Below the pieces are notes generated by a model, which saw nothing but the letters and a program-made list of their open reading frames with translations, searched no databases and had not been told where the DNA came from. Shown piece by piece: positions 6,098 through 35,778 of a DNA stretch of 35,778 nt. The stretch's first letter is position 1. Every line of letters starts with the position of its first letter. The position numbers were made by a program, and so were the translations under genes. Origin of the DNA: a virus; IMG/VR virus record IMGVR_UViG_3300009151_000194, positions 1 to 35,778 of that record; one strand, 5' to 3'.

Positions 6098-6105
6098 TAT
6101 TTATA
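6098..6105 (-). promoter_or_regulatory. Possible T4-type late promoter before the giant fibre gene
   Basis: TATAAATA on the minus strand lies about 60 bases upstream of the fibre ATG at 6039, a typical late leader length. The 8-mer is expected by chance many times in DNA this AT-rich, so the call rests mainly on position and on the gp55-type sigma factor encoded at 18937-19542. Confidence 0.4.
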
Positions 6106-6205
6106 TTTCTTTTATATATGAAAATATATTTTTTTTTCTTTTGCAGAAGCTTTTTCTTTTTTCTTTTCTTTTAAAAATTCTTTTGCAGAAGCTTTTAAAA
6201 ATATA

Positions 6206-6642
6206 TTGCAGTATTCAGGAGATTTAGATTCTACCTTTAAAAGATAGAAATCTTTCTTTCTCTTCTGAATCTTCTATTAAAAAAAAATAGAAAGAAAAAG
6301 AAGAGAAATTTATATTTGCATATAAACTATCGAAAAAGATATCCGAAGAAAACCTTTACTATTAAAAGGGAGCAGTGGTTGGGCTGTCTGCATTTACATC
6401 TGTCTACTATATTTCCCAGCGGTAACAATATTCTATTTCGGATCATTAAAAGAATATTGCATAGGTCTTGTTTCATACCATCATATAAGATAATTATTTT
6501 ATATTCTTTGCTGCCATTTCTTATTTGGGCAGCCAATTTCGAATTCCTTCCAACTTCCTGATATGCAATTGCTATATCATCTTTGGTTACGCATCCCTGC
6601 AAAAGAAATATATTATTATCTTTTTTGCAGTGCGAAATTCTT
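6206..6642 (-). ncRNA. Structured RNA element, copy A (unrecognised family)
   Basis: This stretch matches 35313-35730 in inverted orientation, in several nearly identical blocks. The best is 6345-6402 against 35534-35591: 58 nt with two differences, including 32 identical bases. Others are 6461-6487, 6534-6546, 6414-6425 and 6626-6642. Between the blocks are perfect hairpins: an outer and inner helix at 6550-6586, then 6510-6533 (GCTGCC/GGCAGC), 6426-6459 (8 bp), 6257-6308 (10 bp) and 6227-6252. At the same places copy B has hairpins of entirely different sequence, so pairing is conserved and bases are not. A 91-codon frame overlaps it, but one-base length differences between the copies break any shared frame. 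It reads toward the giant fibre gene. Function unknown: candidates are a late-expressed ornate phage RNA or a long regulatory leader. Confidence 0.8.
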
Positions 6643-6692
6643 TTTGTATTTCATATACCAGTATGGAGACGAAATAATTTATTTCAACCCTA

Positions 6693-6721
6693 TTGACAAT
6701 AAGATTAATATATAATATAAT
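6693..6721 (+). promoter_or_regulatory. Consensus sigma70-type promoter
   Basis: TTGACA at 6693-6698 and TATAAT at 6716-6721 are separated by exactly 17 bases; both hexamers are perfect. Transcription would start near 6728 and run into the small genes from 6756. The promoter diverges from RNA copy A. Confidence 0.85.
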
Positions 6722-14111: not shown

Positions 14112-14795
14112 TTAGTTGTTCCATAATTTTAATAGTGGAAGAGAAGGTTTTTCTGCGACAGAAATCTGCAGATCGTCACCGGAATCATACATAGTTTTTT
14201 CTGATTTCGGATAGGTGTCCACTATAGCATACTTCAATTTCGATTGCATAACTTTCTTTTGTCTTTTGTCGCCATGGAAAATAAAATACCTATGTTTAGG
14301 GAATGGTTTGACTGTCTGTATATTATTTTCTTTTGCCCATGTCTTAGGAGAAGTGATGCCTTTTTCTCTCAACGTCATCGAATGCGTTCTTTTTCCATCT
14401 ACAATATACAGGTGATCATGAGAAACAGTATTTCCTGTGTACATCCAGTTCGTTGCCTGATAGATAATCCCAGAGTGACCATATTCTGTGTCTGCATAAG
14501 AAACGACTGCACATGGTGCCTCTAGTTGCTTTAATGCATTAGAAACAAGAAAGGATGCCGCATTTTTTGATTTAGATTGTACGACAAGTCTGCAAAGTTC
14601 GTATAATTTAAAATCTCTTTCTTGGAATGCATATTTCTGTATTGCAGGAGAAGGTTGACCGAATACACAAACACCAGTTATCATGCCGTTTTCTATCAAA
14701 CCGAAACCTGCCCAGAATATTGATGCTCTTCTGGAATAATGTTTTTTTGTAACAAACTCTTCACAGATTGCCTTTGAAATTTTTATTACTTCCAT
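14112..14795 (-). CDS. Mom-like DNA base-modification protein (acyltransferase fold)
   Basis: A 227-residue protein. The ATG at 14795 is chosen because GGAGGATAAAAAAA stands just before it; the frame extends 53 codons upstream but overlaps the previous gene. Features typical of the phage Mu Mom family are visible: HYSRRA near residue 20, FGLIENGMITGVCVFGQPSP at 29-48, YELCRLVV, an SFLVSNAL helix, and VVSYADTEYGHSGIIYQATNW near 110-130. Mu Mom converts adenine in DNA to a carbamoylmethyl form and shields phage DNA from restriction. The same role is inferred here. It follows three small genes (14800-16100) that may belong to the same cassette. Confidence 0.8.
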   Translation of the reverse strand: MEVIKISKAICEEFVTKKHYSRRASIFWAGFGLIENGMITGVCVFGQPSPAIQKYAFQERDFKLYELCRLVVQSKSKNAASFLVSNALKQLEAPCAVVSYADTEYGHSGIIYQATNWMYTGNTVSHDHLYIVDGKRTHSMTLREKGITSPKTWAKENNIQTVKPFPKHRYFIFHGDKRQKKVMQSKLKYAIVDTYPKSEKTMYDSGDDLQISVAEKPSLPLLKLWNN

Positions 14796-14799
14796 TTTT

Positions 14800-15069
14800 T
14801 TATCCTCCGCCTTGGTGCTCTGTGGGAAGATCATTCGGATTCCTTGCGATACTTCCACACCATTCTGCGCCATCATAGCACAGTGGAAAGTAAACGAAGT
14901 TCTCTGTCCATAATGTAAATGGTTTTCCTTCTGTACCACCAAAACCATCATCAAATTCTTCTATTAATTCTGCATGATTAGAAAATGTAGAAATGTAACG
15001 CACATTGTCGTCTTCATTGTTACTTTTCATTTCGTCTTTAATTAATTTGTACCAAGTCGTTTTTGACAT
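14800..15069 (-). CDS. Small conserved phage protein beside the Mom-like gene
   Basis: An 89-residue protein with a compact conserved-looking core: EFDDGFGGTEGKPFTLWT at about residues 38-55, then VYFPLCYDGAEW and a final HQGGG. This phrase pattern is familiar from small phage proteins of unknown function. The start follows AGAGGATAATAGT. Only four bases separate its stop from the Mom-like start, so the two are translated from one message. It may be a Mom partner, but that rests on proximity alone. Confidence 0.7.
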   Translation of the reverse strand: MSKTTWYKLIKDEMKSNNEDDNVRYISTFSNHAELIEEFDDGFGGTEGKPFTLWTENFVYFPLCYDGAEWCGSIARNPNDLPTEHQGGG

Positions 15070-22840: not shown

Positions 22841-24550
22841 CTATTTTTTAAACATTGCAAATAAATTTGTTGTTTTCTTTGATTCATATCCTATAGAATT
22901 TAAAATTTTGGTCAATGGAGCAATGAATGCTTTTTCAAATTGCATATTATAATCTATATATTTTTCTAATTTAAATTCTTCTGGTAGTTCATCAGGAAAT
23001 GCAATAATATTTTGCTGTAATGGATTAGGTTCTCTCATATAACAATATTTTACCTTGTCTCCGTCCACAATGTCGCTGTATATATGGGCAATTTTAAGTT
23101 TTTTTACTGTTCTATTGAAATTTATTGCTCCTCTTACCTGTGCAGGACATCTTTTCTTTACTCCATATTCAGAATAGTATTTCATCATGTTATCTATTCC
23201 TCTTGGAAATGAGATTTCGTGTACAGGTCGATTCATAAAATCTTTCTTTACGTCTTCAATATATTTTATGACTGTATCATTATCAGATGTCAGAATCAAT
23301 TCAATAGAATTCTTCAGAGATTCTCTTATACATTCTGGAGTAGAAGATCGAACAACTTCTAGTCCCATTATCTTAATGTAATATGGGTCATACCATATGC
23401 CCTCAGAATTGTGTACCAACATGGCATACTTTTTCTTTGCAGTCCAAAAAGAAGTAGAAGATATTGCTTCTCTCTTGAAATGTAATTTATGTTCGTATCC
23501 ATTAGTATATTCGTACAATTCTGTATAACATTTATCGAACACCTTAGAAATTTTCTTTTCACATACTGCATCAAGAAATTCTACTTTTTCTTTTGTGGTA
23601 GCATCAGATTTAAATTTAGAAATAAATTCATTCATGTCCAGATATATCGAATCAGTATCTTCGTATACTACCCAATCTTTTGTGACAGGAGTATCAAATA
23701 AATTATTCATATAATTATTAATATACTTTTCGCCATACTTCAATGCCATCTGCCCTGATGCCGTGATCGCAAGAGCAAGACGCAGATCAAACATCTTGAA
23801 ATATACATTAGAAATACCTCCATAGAGAGAATTCAATGTCAATTTCAATGCCTGTTCAAAATTGCTGTACATTGCTATCTCATTATCAATTTGTTTCCTT
23901 TCTTCTGCAGAATATTCTCCTACTATTCGCTTCAGGTCTAACATTTTCCCTTTATATGTCTTCCTGTCAGATAACATTTTCTTACACAGTATAGGCAAAA
24001 ATCCTTCTACATTCTTGTCGAACATTGCACCATTTGCCGCAATACAAATGTTCTCTTCTTTCAAATATTCCAGATCATATTCTTTTTCGACAAAAGAAGC
24101 GATAGAATTATTTTCTTCGCTCATACCAACAAATGTTTCAGGAGAAATATTATATTGACAAATTAAACTAGGATAGAGAGCCGTTGCATCAAAAGATACT
24201 ATCCATTTTTTTAAGCCATGCGTAGGTTCTTTTACATATGCCCCTGCAAATTTTTCTGCCTCTACCTTTTGTATAGAAAATGGAGGAATTGTATTACTTT
24301 CTAGTAAATGATTGTTAATGATTGCTTCCCATGTCTTCACAGGAGAATAACAGTCACCATAGTTTATTTTTGCAATATATGCAATCTTTAGTGCAATCTG
24401 AATGAGTGTAAGTTTTTCTTCTAGTCTCTTCACAAGATTAGTGTCTTGTATATTATATAAGACAAATTTGTTAAACGCTCTTTGTTTCAGGTCTTTATCT
24501 AATGCACCATATTCCGCAAGAAGTTCACTATCACTCATTTCTTCAAACAT
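22841..24550 (-). CDS. 43: Family-B DNA polymerase, polymerase part (split gp43)
   Basis: This 569-residue piece carries the rest of gp43. Exo III (YNIQD) is at 32-36, motif A (DATALYPS) at 121-128, motif B (NSLYGG) at 240-245 and motif C (YEDTDS) at 296-301, followed by palm and thumb to a C-terminal end (TTNLFAMFKK) where a clamp-binding tail is expected. The catalytic Asp residues are intact. Translation begins anew at ATG 24550 after a TTGGAG site. The N-terminal piece lies at 25441-26427, so the proofreading domain is divided and both pieces must join. The break falls in a spacer between Exo II and III, with little or no core sequence lost. Confidence 0.95.
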   Translation of the reverse strand: MFEEMSDSELLAEYGALDKDLKQRAFNKFVLYNIQDTNLVKRLEEKLTLIQIALKIAYIAKINYGDCYSPVKTWEAIINNHLLESNTIPPFSIQKVEAEKFAGAYVKEPTHGLKKWIVSFDATALYPSLICQYNISPETFVGMSEENNSIASFVEKEYDLEYLKEENICIAANGAMFDKNVEGFLPILCKKMLSDRKTYKGKMLDLKRIVGEYSAEERKQIDNEIAMYSNFEQALKLTLNSLYGGISNVYFKMFDLRLALAITASGQMALKYGEKYINNYMNNLFDTPVTKDWVVYEDTDSIYLDMNEFISKFKSDATTKEKVEFLDAVCEKKISKVFDKCYTELYEYTNGYEHKLHFKREAISSTSFWTAKKKYAMLVHNSEGIWYDPYYIKIMGLEVVRSSTPECIRESLKNSIELILTSDNDTVIKYIEDVKKDFMNRPVHEISFPRGIDNMMKYYSEYGVKKRCPAQVRGAINFNRTVKKLKIAHIYSDIVDGDKVKYCYMREPNPLQQNIIAFPDELPEEFKLEKYIDYNMQFEKAFIAPLTKILNSIGYESKKTTNLFAMFKK

Positions 24551-24620
24551 AAAATCTCCAATAATAAATTTATACTATACTACAAAACATATTAAAATAA
24601 ATAGTAAACTTTTTAATTTT

Positions 24621-24628
24621 TATAAATA
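24621..24628 (+). promoter_or_regulatory. Possible late promoter for the homing endonuclease
   Basis: TATAAATA on the plus strand about 75 bases before the endonuclease start. Late promoters in front of T4 homing endonucleases are known, but the motif alone is weak evidence. Confidence 0.35.
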
Positions 24629-24638
24629 ATATTAAAAC

Positions 24639-24677
24639 AAAAAAATGCCAATCACGGGTTTCTGACACCCTATTGGC
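24639..24677 (-). terminator. Hairpin with minus-strand T-run between polymerase halves
   Basis: GCCAAT (24647-24652) pairs with ATTGGC (24672-24677), with a second pairing GGGT/ACCC inside. On the minus strand a T7 run follows, the form of an intrinsic terminator. On the plus strand the same hairpin stands in the leader of the endonuclease gene. Confidence 0.65.
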
Positions 24678-24702
24678 TCTAATACTATAACGGAGTATCA
24701 GC

Positions 24703-25458
24703 ATGAATATTTATACGACTATCATACCAACCTATCTTTACATCAAAAGGCATTCAGTTACCAAGTTAAAATACTTCGGTAAAACTTCCTTAGATGATCC
24801 AATAAAATATCTAGGCTCAGGAACCTATTGGACAAAGCATATTAACAAACACGGCAAACAATTCGTTGATACTATTTGGTTATCTGATTTATATACTGAT
24901 ATATCTATCTCCGAACACGCTCTTCATTTTTCGCACGAAAATGATATAGTTAAATCAGACGAGTGGGCTAATCTAAAACTAGAAAATGGTTTAGATGGCG
25001 GAGCATATTTACCATCACAACCTACAGTAGAAAGAATTTGTTATTGTGGAAATATTTTTCAAACTAAACACTCTAGCAAAAAGGCTACTTGTGGGTATTC
25101 CTGCTCAAATACCATTACTGCTAATAAAAGAATACCAATCGCATTAAATAATAATATCTATATATTTAAAAACCTATTCAATAACGAAATTATACACTCT
25201 ACTATTTTTGATTTTAAAAAATATTCTTTTCTTTCTGCAGCAAATATAAATCATTTAGTACATGGAAATCATAAAATAATAAAATATTGGACTATTTTTG
25301 ATACTGTAGCAAATAAATTTAGAAATGAAATTCCAAATAAATCTCCCCCAAAACCATTAACTAAAATTTGCTCCCATTGCAATAAAGAAATATCATATGC
25401 AAATTATGTTAGGTGGCATGGGGATAATTGCAAAATGATATCATTCATTATGAATTAA
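24703..25458 (+). CDS. GIY-YIG-type homing endonuclease
   Basis: A 251-residue protein. The N-terminus (TYLYIKRHSVTKLKYFGKTS, then DPIKYLGSGTYW and HINKHGK) is a GIY-YIG variant of the phage-borne kind, with the phrase SDEWANLKLENGLDGG near residue 84 that recurs in this group. The C-terminal half has two zinc-finger-like clusters: CYCGNIF with CGYSC near 110-131, and CSHCNKEIS with RWHGDNCK near 222-245. A cleavage and DNA-recognition pair is thus complete. The gene lies on the opposite strand inside gp43, and its end overlaps the end of the N-terminal polymerase gene by 18 bases. ACGGAG sets the start. It probably caused the split. Confidence 0.85.
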   Translation: MNIYTTIIPTYLYIKRHSVTKLKYFGKTSLDDPIKYLGSGTYWTKHINKHGKQFVDTIWLSDLYTDISISEHALHFSHENDIVKSDEWANLKLENGLDGGAYLPSQPTVERICYCGNIFQTKHSSKKATCGYSCSNTITANKRIPIALNNNIYIFKNLFNNEIIHSTIFDFKKYSFLSAANINHLVHGNHKIIKYWTIFDTVANKFRNEIPNKSPPKPLTKICSHCNKEISYANYVRWHGDNCKMISFIMN

Positions 25459-26427
25459 ACCTCTCAATAAAAGCTCTTTTTTTATCAAAGTTCTCCTAAG
25501 CCCCAGTTCATCTATTTCTTGATGATCTGGGCGGATTTTTTCTATATCATATTCACCAGAATAAAATTCTTTGAATGTCTTATAGGGGTTTTTTAATTTG
25601 TTTTGTTTTAATTCATAATATCCAATCGTATCTAATTTATAATTTTCTCTTGTAATAAAAGTAAACTTCTTATATAAATTTAAGTAGTCAAGATGTTGCA
25701 CTCCATATATGTCATATGTGTTTACTATTTTTACACTCTTATCTTTTTTCTTTGTTCTTATTTCTCTTGCGCTCACTACTCCAAAAGGAGAAAGTCTTTT
25801 TGCATATTCTACTCCGAGAATCTCAGAAATTCTATTGTAGATATATGGAATATCAAATGATTCTGTGTTCCATCCGGAAACAATATCAGGATAATGAGAA
25901 GACCAGTATTGTACGAATTTACGCAGAAGAACTATTTCTCCGTCACATTCTACATAATTAATGGATTCGTCCCCTGTATACGGCTTATATCCAAATGTTA
26001 TTATTCCATTCTTACTGGAACACAAAGTAATAAGAGTAATTTTTTCTTTTGCCGTGTCCGGATGTGGAAAACAATCTCCTACTTCTGTCTCAATATCAAT
26101 AAAGCACATATCAATATCATTAATATTATACTTTACTTCTTCTTTATATTCTTCTGCAAGGAACTGATAGCTATAGTTACCATTCCCGTATAACTTCATG
26201 TTCTCTATATCTTTGTGTCGCTCAATAAAGCTCTTACATTCCTTTATGGTAACAAAACTATGCTCTACTAAAGGTTCTTTATATATCGTACAATGAGTAG
26301 CATCTAGTTGAGATTTTGTGTATATTTTTGGAGAGAATTTAAACTTACTTCTGGTTCTTTCTCCATTTTCAATATACGAATAAAATAATGTGTCGCCAAT
26401 CTGTCTAATATCAGTATAAAATTTCAT
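25441..26427 (-). CDS. 43: Family-B DNA polymerase, N-terminal exonuclease part (split gp43)
   Basis: This 328-residue piece holds the N-terminal domain and most of the 3'-5' exonuclease. Exo I (DIET) is at 111-114 and Exo II (NTESFD) at 187-192, followed by the NYKLDTIGYYELKQNK region. Exo III is on the other piece. The last roughly 35 residues (RPDHQEIDELGLRRTLIKKE, then LLLRG) look like the first half of a spacer whose second half opens the C-terminal gene (EEMSDSELLAEYGALDKDLK). The start overlaps the previous stop as ATGA. It should assemble with the product of 22841-24550. Confidence 0.95.
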   Translation of the reverse strand: MKFYTDIRQIGDTLFYSYIENGERTRSKFKFSPKIYTKSQLDATHCTIYKEPLVEHSFVTIKECKSFIERHKDIENMKLYGNGNYSYQFLAEEYKEEVKYNINDIDMCFIDIETEVGDCFPHPDTAKEKITLITLCSSKNGIITFGYKPYTGDESINYVECDGEIVLLRKFVQYWSSHYPDIVSGWNTESFDIPYIYNRISEILGVEYAKRLSPFGVVSAREIRTKKKDKSVKIVNTYDIYGVQHLDYLNLYKKFTFITRENYKLDTIGYYELKQNKLKNPYKTFKEFYSGEYDIEKIRPDHQEIDELGLRRTLIKKELLLRGLIHNE

Positions 26428-30830: not shown

Positions 30831-30898
30831 GGGAACCTTGTGGGAATCGAACCCACGTTATTCCCCACAGAGCGTCCTAACCACTAGACGATAAGAAT
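30830..30898 (-). pseudogene. Degenerate tRNA
   Basis: The T-arm (GTGGG-TTCGATT-CCCAC), D-arm (GTCTAGTGGTTAGGAC) and CCA end are perfect. However, only 17 bases lie between the D- and T-stems where about 23 are needed, the anticodon stem does not pair, and the 5' and 3' acceptor halves (ATTCTTA against AAGGTTC) do not match. It appears to be a damaged tRNA that lost part of its anticodon arm, or one with changed structure. The original identity cannot be read; His or Pro anticodon remnants are possible. Confidence 0.6.
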
Positions 30899-33032: not shown

Positions 33033-33488
33033 TTATCCTCCCATAGTGAGAGTCTGCCATGCAATATAATTTTTTATATCATAGCTGCGACTATGCAAAC
33101 TTTTCATTATAGATTCTAATGTATATATGACAGTCTCCATATATACGACCTTATCATAAAATTTACTGAGTTCTTTATCAGAATTCAATATTTCATTCAT
33201 TTCCGTTTTCAGAGGTTTATTTTCTTGGTACTGATCCCAATTTTTTTGTAGTAATTCTTCTTTGGTCAATTTGCCAGTATAATACCGCTGACGCAATGAT
33301 TTCATTGCATTGTATTCATTGTATATCTTTCTGAGTTTTAATTTGTAGGCAGACAGTAATTCGAGGTATTTTGCATGTAAAGAAGGAACTTTTATGCTTT
33401 CTGTTGCGATATCGTTTCTGTCTACTACAGAATCAATTTTCCATGCCGAATTAATTTCATCAAGATTCATAATATATTTTTCTGCCAT
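33033..33488 (-). CDS. uvsY: UvsY-type recombination mediator
   Basis: A 151-residue helical protein. LHAKYLELLSAYKLKLRKIY, YYTGKLTKEELLQKNWDQY and RSYDIKNYIAWQTLTMGG match the UvsY core. UvsY helps the UvsX recombinase load on SSB-covered DNA. T4 UvsY is 137 residues, so this is full length. Its end supplies the SD for uvsW, so both are coupled as in T4-like phages. The recombinase UvsX itself is not in this window. Confidence 0.88.
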   Translation of the reverse strand: MAEKYIMNLDEINSAWKIDSVVDRNDIATESIKVPSLHAKYLELLSAYKLKLRKIYNEYNAMKSLRQRYYTGKLTKEELLQKNWDQYQENKPLKTEMNEILNSDKELSKFYDKVVYMETVIYTLESIMKSLHSRSYDIKNYIAWQTLTMGG

Positions 33489-34685: not shown

Positions 34686-35216
34686 CTAATGAAATTTAAA
34701 ATATGTGTATCTGAAGGTTGCATTGCATGTGATATATGTAGTATCTTCTGCAGTTGTTCCAAATGTGAGTGTAGATATCCTAATAGGAAACAAATCTGTA
34801 AAATGAACATCTAAATTTATATTATTATTATTTGTTAAAATACTCAATATTCCGTCAGATGTCAATTGTGATTGACCATTCACAGATGTTCTGCCAAATA
34901 GACGCTTTTTCTCGCTCTCACTGAATTCTTTGAATTGATCCAATGATTCGGGATGACCAAGACCATATATCCAGTGTTGCAATTCCTTGTAGTTTTTTAG
35001 ATCTTCGTCCACAATAAAAGAAAGTTCTAAATCATCGTAATCTATTTTATCTGAAGGTACATGATAATCTTGTACTGGAGTACCAATATTTATACTTCCC
35101 ATGCTCAATTCAGGTATTGGACAGACTTGAGTAAAAAATGTCACAGTAGGTATCTTGTCTATCACAAGACGAAATCCTAGCTGCGAAAGAAATTTTGGTT
35201 GATTTGGTAGAAGCAT
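34686..35216 (-). CDS. T4-like tail-tube-fold virion protein
   Basis: A 176-residue structural protein. NQPKFLSQLGFRLVIDKIP, VTFFTQVCPIPELSMG near residue 30, DYHVPSDKIDYDDLELSFIVDEDLKNY near 49-75, a short linker and the final ITCNATFRYTYFKF are the marks of the tail-tube family of contractile phages (gp19, and the related gp54/gp48 baseplate-tube proteins). In distant T4 relatives this group serves as tail tube or tube initiator; which one applies here cannot be decided. A TATAAATA motif lies 35 bases upstream. Confidence 0.75.
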   Translation of the reverse strand: MLLPNQPKFLSQLGFRLVIDKIPTVTFFTQVCPIPELSMGSINIGTPVQDYHVPSDKIDYDDLELSFIVDEDLKNYKELQHWIYGLGHPESLDQFKEFSESEKKRLFGRTSVNGQSQLTSDGILSILTNNNNINLDVHFTDLFPIRISTLTFGTTAEDTTYITCNATFRYTYFKFH

Positions 35217-35241: not shown

Positions 35242-35258
35242 TATAAATAGTATTTATA
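35242..35258. promoter_or_regulatory. Divergent pair of TATAAATA late-promoter motifs
   Basis: TATAAATA on the plus strand (35242-35249) faces RNA copy B and TATAAATA on the minus strand (35258-35251) faces the tail-tube gene. The two motifs form a 17-nt near-palindrome. This back-to-back position between two outward units is the strongest late-promoter case in the window. Confidence 0.55.
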
Positions 35259-35312
35259 CATTAAATGTATTGAAAAAAAATGTATTGCCCCCATGTCATA
35301 TTTTGACATTAC

Positions 35313-35730
35313 AAGAATTTCACCCTGCATAGTAATTGCAGAGATGTGTAAGTACAGATATCAGAACTGGAAATGGTCTGATTTATATTGGTACAAAGAA
35401 TTCGAAATTGCATGACAAAATACAGGAAAGTCATGTCTAAAATAAATACCGTATATGATGGTGTGAAACAAAACCTATATAGATACTGCTAATGACTTGA
35501 TTTAGTATCTATTACCGCTGGGATCTCAGTAAACAGATGTAAATGCAGACAGCCCAACCACTGCTTCCTTTTAATAATAAAGGTTTTCTTCAAGTATCTT
35601 TTCGAGAGATTATATGCATATGTGCTTTCTGTTTCGTAGAATGTTTCTTTTTTTTTATGTTACAGAAAGTATTATAATTTTTTCAGATTTTATCTTTCAC
35701 AGGTAAAATCTATCCTCCTGAATTCTGCAA
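35313..35730 (+). ncRNA. Structured RNA element, copy B (unrecognised family)
   Basis: Partner of 6206-6642 in the opposite orientation. Conserved blocks: 35313-35329, 35337-35351, 35398-35410, 35452-35478, 35513-35524, 35534-35591 and 35717-35730. Hairpins at positions equivalent to copy A but with other bases: GTAC/GTAC plus ATCAGA/TCTGAT (35352-35394), CATGAC/GTCATG (35411-35435), ATAGATACT/AGTATCTAT (35479-35512), CTTTCTGT/ACAGAAAG (35625-35669) and AGATTTTATCT/AGGTAAAATCT (35685-35711). It lies about 65 bases after a TATAAATA motif and reads off the right end, presumably toward another gene. No long frame is conserved between copies. A possible pseudoknot joins TGGG near 35519 to CCCA near 35553. 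Confidence 0.8.
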
Positions 35731-35778
35731 CAGAAAAAGCTTCTGCAAAAGAAATCAAAAAATAAAAAAAAAGAAAAG

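Follow-up and report, generated by a model that had tools for sequence, protein, structure and literature searches.

The question raised by this locus is why a T4-like phage carries one stretch of DNA twice between its genes, and whether that stretch acts as a folded RNA. The source is a virus record of 35.8 kb (G000), a fragment of a T4-like phage, and all of it (35,778 nucleotides) is referred to here as the window. The gene content includes a tail spike/structural gene, a two-part DNA polymerase, SbcCD-like gp46/47, a DNA helicase, UvsY, endonuclease VII, SSB and a tail-tube/gp3-like protein; the best protein matches (40-46% identity) are in cyanophages and other aquatic T4-like phages. Looking at the rest of the window, the DNA polymerase gene (22841-26427) is in two pieces: its N part occupies 25441-26427 (-), its C part 22841-24550 (-), and between them, on the opposite strand, is an HNH-endonuclease-like ORF (24703-25458, +). 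In the cyanophages ACG-2014f there are two genes for DNA polymerase, and hypothetical genes occupy the matched place. A tRNA-like remnant (30840-30889, -; 22.6 bits, below threshold) is located between tRNA-Met and tRNA-Gln and adjoins a 25-nt inverted repeat (30724-30748/30809-30833). Also, judged by a first-order Markov expectation, the word CTGCAG, found 47 times in the window, is ~11-fold over-represented, and TTCTGCAG is found 29 times, with ~1 expected; a gene of the Mom DNA-modification family (14112-14954) is present in the same window.

The features of the two copies, A and B, are presented in Table 1. Judged by their alignment, the copies are homologous, as the original prediction had held: 321 of 464 aligned columns are identical (69%), and blastn gives E values of ~3e-58 to 1e-57 over 434-436 columns. 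The most conserved block, described earlier as 58 nt with two differences, is found at A1 columns 177-234. Based on the lengths of the gaps (1, 2, 5, 6 and 17 bases) and the stops in all frames (3-14 in every frame, on both strands of each copy), a shared reading frame is excluded, in agreement with the earlier reading, and the 81- and 91-aa ORFs of copy A have no counterpart of at least 60 aa over copy B. A protein-coding repeat was rejected, as A and B share no open frame. The same applies to a peptide reading of the conserved block (AVVGLSAFTSVY), the frame of which stops at once in B, with conservation continuing beyond the stop. A second IMG/VR contig from the same phage, L001, carries copy B without any difference in the 491 bases compared (100% identity), and both contigs end at the 5' side of this copy.

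Table 1. Positions of the two copies, of their predicted pairing elements and of neighbouring promoter-like sites in the window
Feature	Position	Strand	Details
Copy A, RNA element	6178..6676 (approx.)	+	From A/B alignment; extends reported 6206-6642
Copy B, RNA element	35282..35755 (approx.)	-	From A/B alignment; extends reported 35313-35730; identical copy in contig L001
Most conserved block, copy A	6345..6403	+	58-59 nt, two differences to B; holds hairpin CCTTT/AAAGG
Most conserved block, copy B	35533..35591	-	From A/B alignment
Hairpin Ha, copy A	6226..6253	+	AGATTCTA/TAG-A-AATCT
Hairpin Ha, copy B	35685..35711	-	AGATTTTA/TAAAATCT
Hairpin Hd, copy A	6426..6459	+	CAATATTCT/AGAATATTG, 16-nt loop
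Hairpin Hd, copy B	35480..35511	-	TAGATACT/AGTATCTA, 16-nt loop
Hairpin He, copy A	6510..6533	+	GCTGCC/GGCAGC
Hairpin He, copy B	35411..35435	-	CATGAC/GTCATG
3' sub-domain, copy A	6535..6639	+	Closed by AATTTCG/CGAAATT; holds Hf (CCAA/TTGG) and Hg (CTGCA/TGCAG)
3' sub-domain, copy B	35316..35409	-	Closed by AATTTCG/TGAAATT; holds Hf (GTAC/GTAC) and Hg
Candidate PK1, upstream strand, copy A	6341..6346	+	ATCCGA, pairs with TCGGAT 6438-6443 in Hd loop
Candidate PK1, upstream strand, copy B	35590..35595	-	ACTTGA, pairs with TCAAGT 35500-35495 in Hd loop
Candidate PK2, upstream strand, copy A	6485..6490	+	ATAAGA, pairs with TCTTAT 6519-6524 in He loop
Candidate PK2, upstream strand, copy B	35449..35454	-	ATACGG, pairs with CTGTAT 35425-35420 in He loop
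Late promoter word TATAAATA, T4-type	6098..6105	-	Before tail spike gene, divergent from copy A
Sigma-70 promoter TTGACA-17-TATAAT	6693..6721	+	12/12 matches; directly 3' of copy A, faces following small genes
Late promoter word TATAAATA, T4-type	35251..35258	-	Between copy B and gp3/tail-tube-like gene

Concerning the hairpins, many positions of the Hd, He and Hf stems differ between the copies, and pairing is kept in both. Hd has three double changes plus one whole base pair that is present in one copy only, and He has three double changes. The stem comparisons singled out in the original prediction, those of Hd, He and Hf, were all recovered at matching positions in A and B. We folded seven aligned segments of each copy separately and compared them with dinucleotide shuffles; for most segments the same hairpin was obtained in A and B (p mostly <0.05), so the hairpins do keep their aligned places, as had been claimed. 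A 5' helix predicted by RNAalifold (P1, TGCAGA/TCTGCA) carries little weight here, TGCAG words being in excess throughout the window.

The pairing model compiled by hand from A and B contains 86 pairs: 65 are the same in both copies, six have a one-sided change and are still paired, 15 show double changes and none is broken. When the same 36 changes were placed at random, double pairs had a mean of 3.7 and a maximum of 11 (200,000 draws), a comparison that is descriptive rather than a strict test, since the helices were picked by eye and the probability for the 86 pairs is too favourable. For the consensus fold, the controls kept the alignment fixed and redrew the substitutions of one copy, taking either copy in turn (n=120). 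The RNAalifold consensus energy was lower than in 120 of 120 controls (z -3.2 and -3.4), and the consensus fold of the opposite strand was weaker (z -2.2 and -1.9); the covariation term of RNAalifold, taken alone, gave z of 1.2-1.8. The folding energy of the whole copy has a z of -3.98 for A, whereas that of B is -0.47, so that the argument depends on comparing the copies. When full-length copy A is folded as a single sequence, its ensemble contains a competing fold and Hd is not formed. As far as the two sequences can tell, the pairing of the diverged stems is preserved, and the element is very probably a folded RNA. The prediction of a folded, selected RNA present twice is thus supported, and its length of 420-440 nt has to give way to the wider limits of Table 1. 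Being long and untranslated and having compensatory stem changes, the element probably belongs to the broad kind of large structured phage non-coding RNAs.

Scanning A and B for shared stems yielded two candidate pseudoknots, PK1 and PK2, which were not among the stems listed originally. PK1 has 6 bp, with three double changes between A and B; PK2 also has 6 bp, with two double changes and one G-C/G-U. A blind stem search found PK1-like stems in 9-14% of redrawn alignments and two PK-like stems together in 7-8%, rates at which the statistics support PK1 and PK2 only moderately. Additional to the statistics, one strand of each lies in the loop of a hairpin that is present in both copies. Taken together, PK1 and PK2 are moderately supported as real contacts. 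The predicted duplex energies of PK1 are -8.9 (A-A) and -5.9 (B-B), with -1.9 and -3.2 kcal/mol for the cross pairs; those of PK2 are -4.0 (A-A) and -5.0 (B-B), with -1.8 and +0.5 kcal/mol for the cross pairs.

Both copies are intergenic. The original statement that they read away from the core gene block proved wrong: A (+) and B (-) face each other and read inward. Copy A adjoins the divergent gene of a 1287-aa tail protein. No sigma-70-like site was found 5' of copy A, the 5' region of copy B lying beyond the contig, and neither copy showed an intrinsic terminator. The word TATAAATA has 16 sites in the window against 7.8 expected; the tail gene, the UvsY gene and the gp3-like gene are among those preceded by one. 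Another word, TTTTGCAGAAGCTTTT, is found twice before copy A (6138-6196, 42 bases apart) and once before copy B. Both this contig and L001 end at the TTTTGCAGAAGCTTTT of copy B, which may reflect an assembly break at a repeat, and more copies of the element may perhaps be present elsewhere in the genome.

In a search of the window with Rfam 15 only tRNA families reached the threshold, and over copies A and B there was no match of note at E up to 10, which agrees with the earlier remark that no known family was recognised. GOLLD (RF02032) and ROOL (RF03087) had been named as the first families to compare; their models gave no match in the window at E 10, not even below threshold, and membership is unsupported, in a search for which both models lacked a positive control (GOLLD: 0 of 14 control genomes over the cut-off). 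Using blastn with A and B, no relative was found in GenBank phages and plasmids. Patterns from the conserved core, exact or gapped, retrieved from the viral contigs (IMG/VR) the same phage and otherwise chance matches, which on inspection were mostly in what reads as coding sequence, and the core pattern found no relative in genome contigs. The core covariance model R1 found nothing in 50 related viral records and the pattern matches. The phage clade appears thinly sampled, since relatives of the tail-tube-like gene come from the same phage only and those of the helicase reach at best 46% identity among the matches listed. As no homologue was found beyond the same phage, the family rests on two sequences, A and B.

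We consider it probable that a T4-like phage here encodes one large structured non-coding RNA (~475-500 nt) in two paralogous genes, A and B. Each RNA would form several hairpins in succession and a closed 3' sub-domain, with the loops of Hd and He pairing with strands upstream of them. It would act during infection as its own transcript, a scaffold or assembling RNA, and not as the leader of the next gene; its transcription and its action in trans are our inference. A cis-acting leader or regulator, whose structured 5' region would be transcribed together with the genes that follow (small early genes for A, the gp3/tail-tube-like gene for B), is unlikely, although copy B is directly upstream of the gp3-like gene (34686-35216) on the same strand and copy A is upstream of + strand genes. 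The stand-alone RNA is preferred because a good promoter-like site is present for each of the two downstream genes, 3' of the RNA and before the start codon; for the gp3-like gene, its own late word TATAAATA suggests that it need not depend on copy B. Also, the genes downstream of A and B are unrelated to each other, and ~480 nt with two pseudoknots would be large for a leader.

The places of the copies resemble those of T4 origins close to uvsY and to tail fibre gene 34: copy B is ~1.8 kb from the uvsY homologue (33033-33488) and copy A is beside the tail protein gene. It is nevertheless quite improbable that the transcript structure serves replication initiation, as T4 origins are not known to have a long structured RNA in common, and the GC skew has no sharp turn at A (B, at the contig end, is not assessable). 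A decayed mobile element, intron-like or transposon-derived, would account for two diverged copies in unrelated places with a common 5' flank (TTTTGCAGAAGCTTTT), and an HNH-like ORF is present elsewhere in the window. Stems that were relics should however contain broken pairs, of which there are none; no reverse transcriptase, transposase or TnpB was found among the ORFs scanned, and we regard such an origin as very improbable. A group I or II intron was rejected, with no Rfam match to a catalytic core and no insertion inside a gene, both copies being located between genes. It is hardly credible that the copies are a shared DNA repeat without RNA function: the sequence is AT-rich and hairpin-prone and the blind stem search is only moderately significant, but none of the 120 controls reaches the consensus fold, the hairpins are kept in both copies and the 15 double changes come with no broken pair.

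Known large structured phage RNAs are very few, and the function of the best-studied ones, GOLLD and ROOL, is not settled (PMC12286853). In ROOL a junction pairs with the loop of the next hairpin (J6/8-L8), and GOLLD has a loop-junction contact (J13/15-L20), both shown to be intermolecular (PMC12286853). Like ROOL, the element described here is large, phage-encoded and hairpin-rich, and the candidate PK2, if it forms, would have the arrangement of J6/8-L8 (two double changes; the blind search gives 7-8% for two such stems together). Unlike ROOL, it is ~480 nt long against 574 positions of the ROOL model, has no Rfam match at E 10 and is not beside the tRNAs of the window. With GOLLD (Rfam model of 416 positions) it shares the size of a large phage RNA and, in the candidate PK1, would share a loop-junction contact; it differs in being present twice in one genome fragment, in giving no model match and in having no sequence similarity that could be found. 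The pairing of loops with upstream strands, if it forms as predicted, is a resemblance to ROOL and GOLLD in the way of working, not membership. By the same analogy the loop-strand contacts may form between molecules.

ICP1 (~800 nt; PMC7567579) and phage K (lnc001 and lnc002; PMC9241854) express long ncRNAs of no assigned class that rank among their most abundant transcripts, so that long ncRNA genes are known in lytic myoviruses. The element resembles these as a long ORF-less stretch; those are known from RNA-seq, and A and B gave no blastn relative in the phage collection. The manA (RF01745) and wcaG (RF01761) RNAs are structured RNAs of T4-like cyanophages, described as motifs of potential 5' UTRs (PMC2864571); the element is likewise very probably a structured RNA of a T4-like aquatic phage, but unlike these motifs it has no Rfam match. 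It is likely a new large structured phage RNA that acts in trans, similar to ROOL and GOLLD in its predicted loop-junction contacts and not a member of either family.

A further large phage RNA, unrelated in sequence to GOLLD and ROOL and present in a T4-like phage as two diverged copies, would suggest that such RNAs have more than one origin. The paralogues A and B are also a natural test of whether loop-strand contacts are copy-specific. On the basis of the modelled duplexes we raise, as a speculative and rather doubtful proposal, a new class of self-assembling RNA with intermolecular pairing of two hairpin loops to upstream strands, the paralogues having diverged in these contacts so that A would pair with A and B with B. 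If this is true, one phage would build two separate RNA assemblies.
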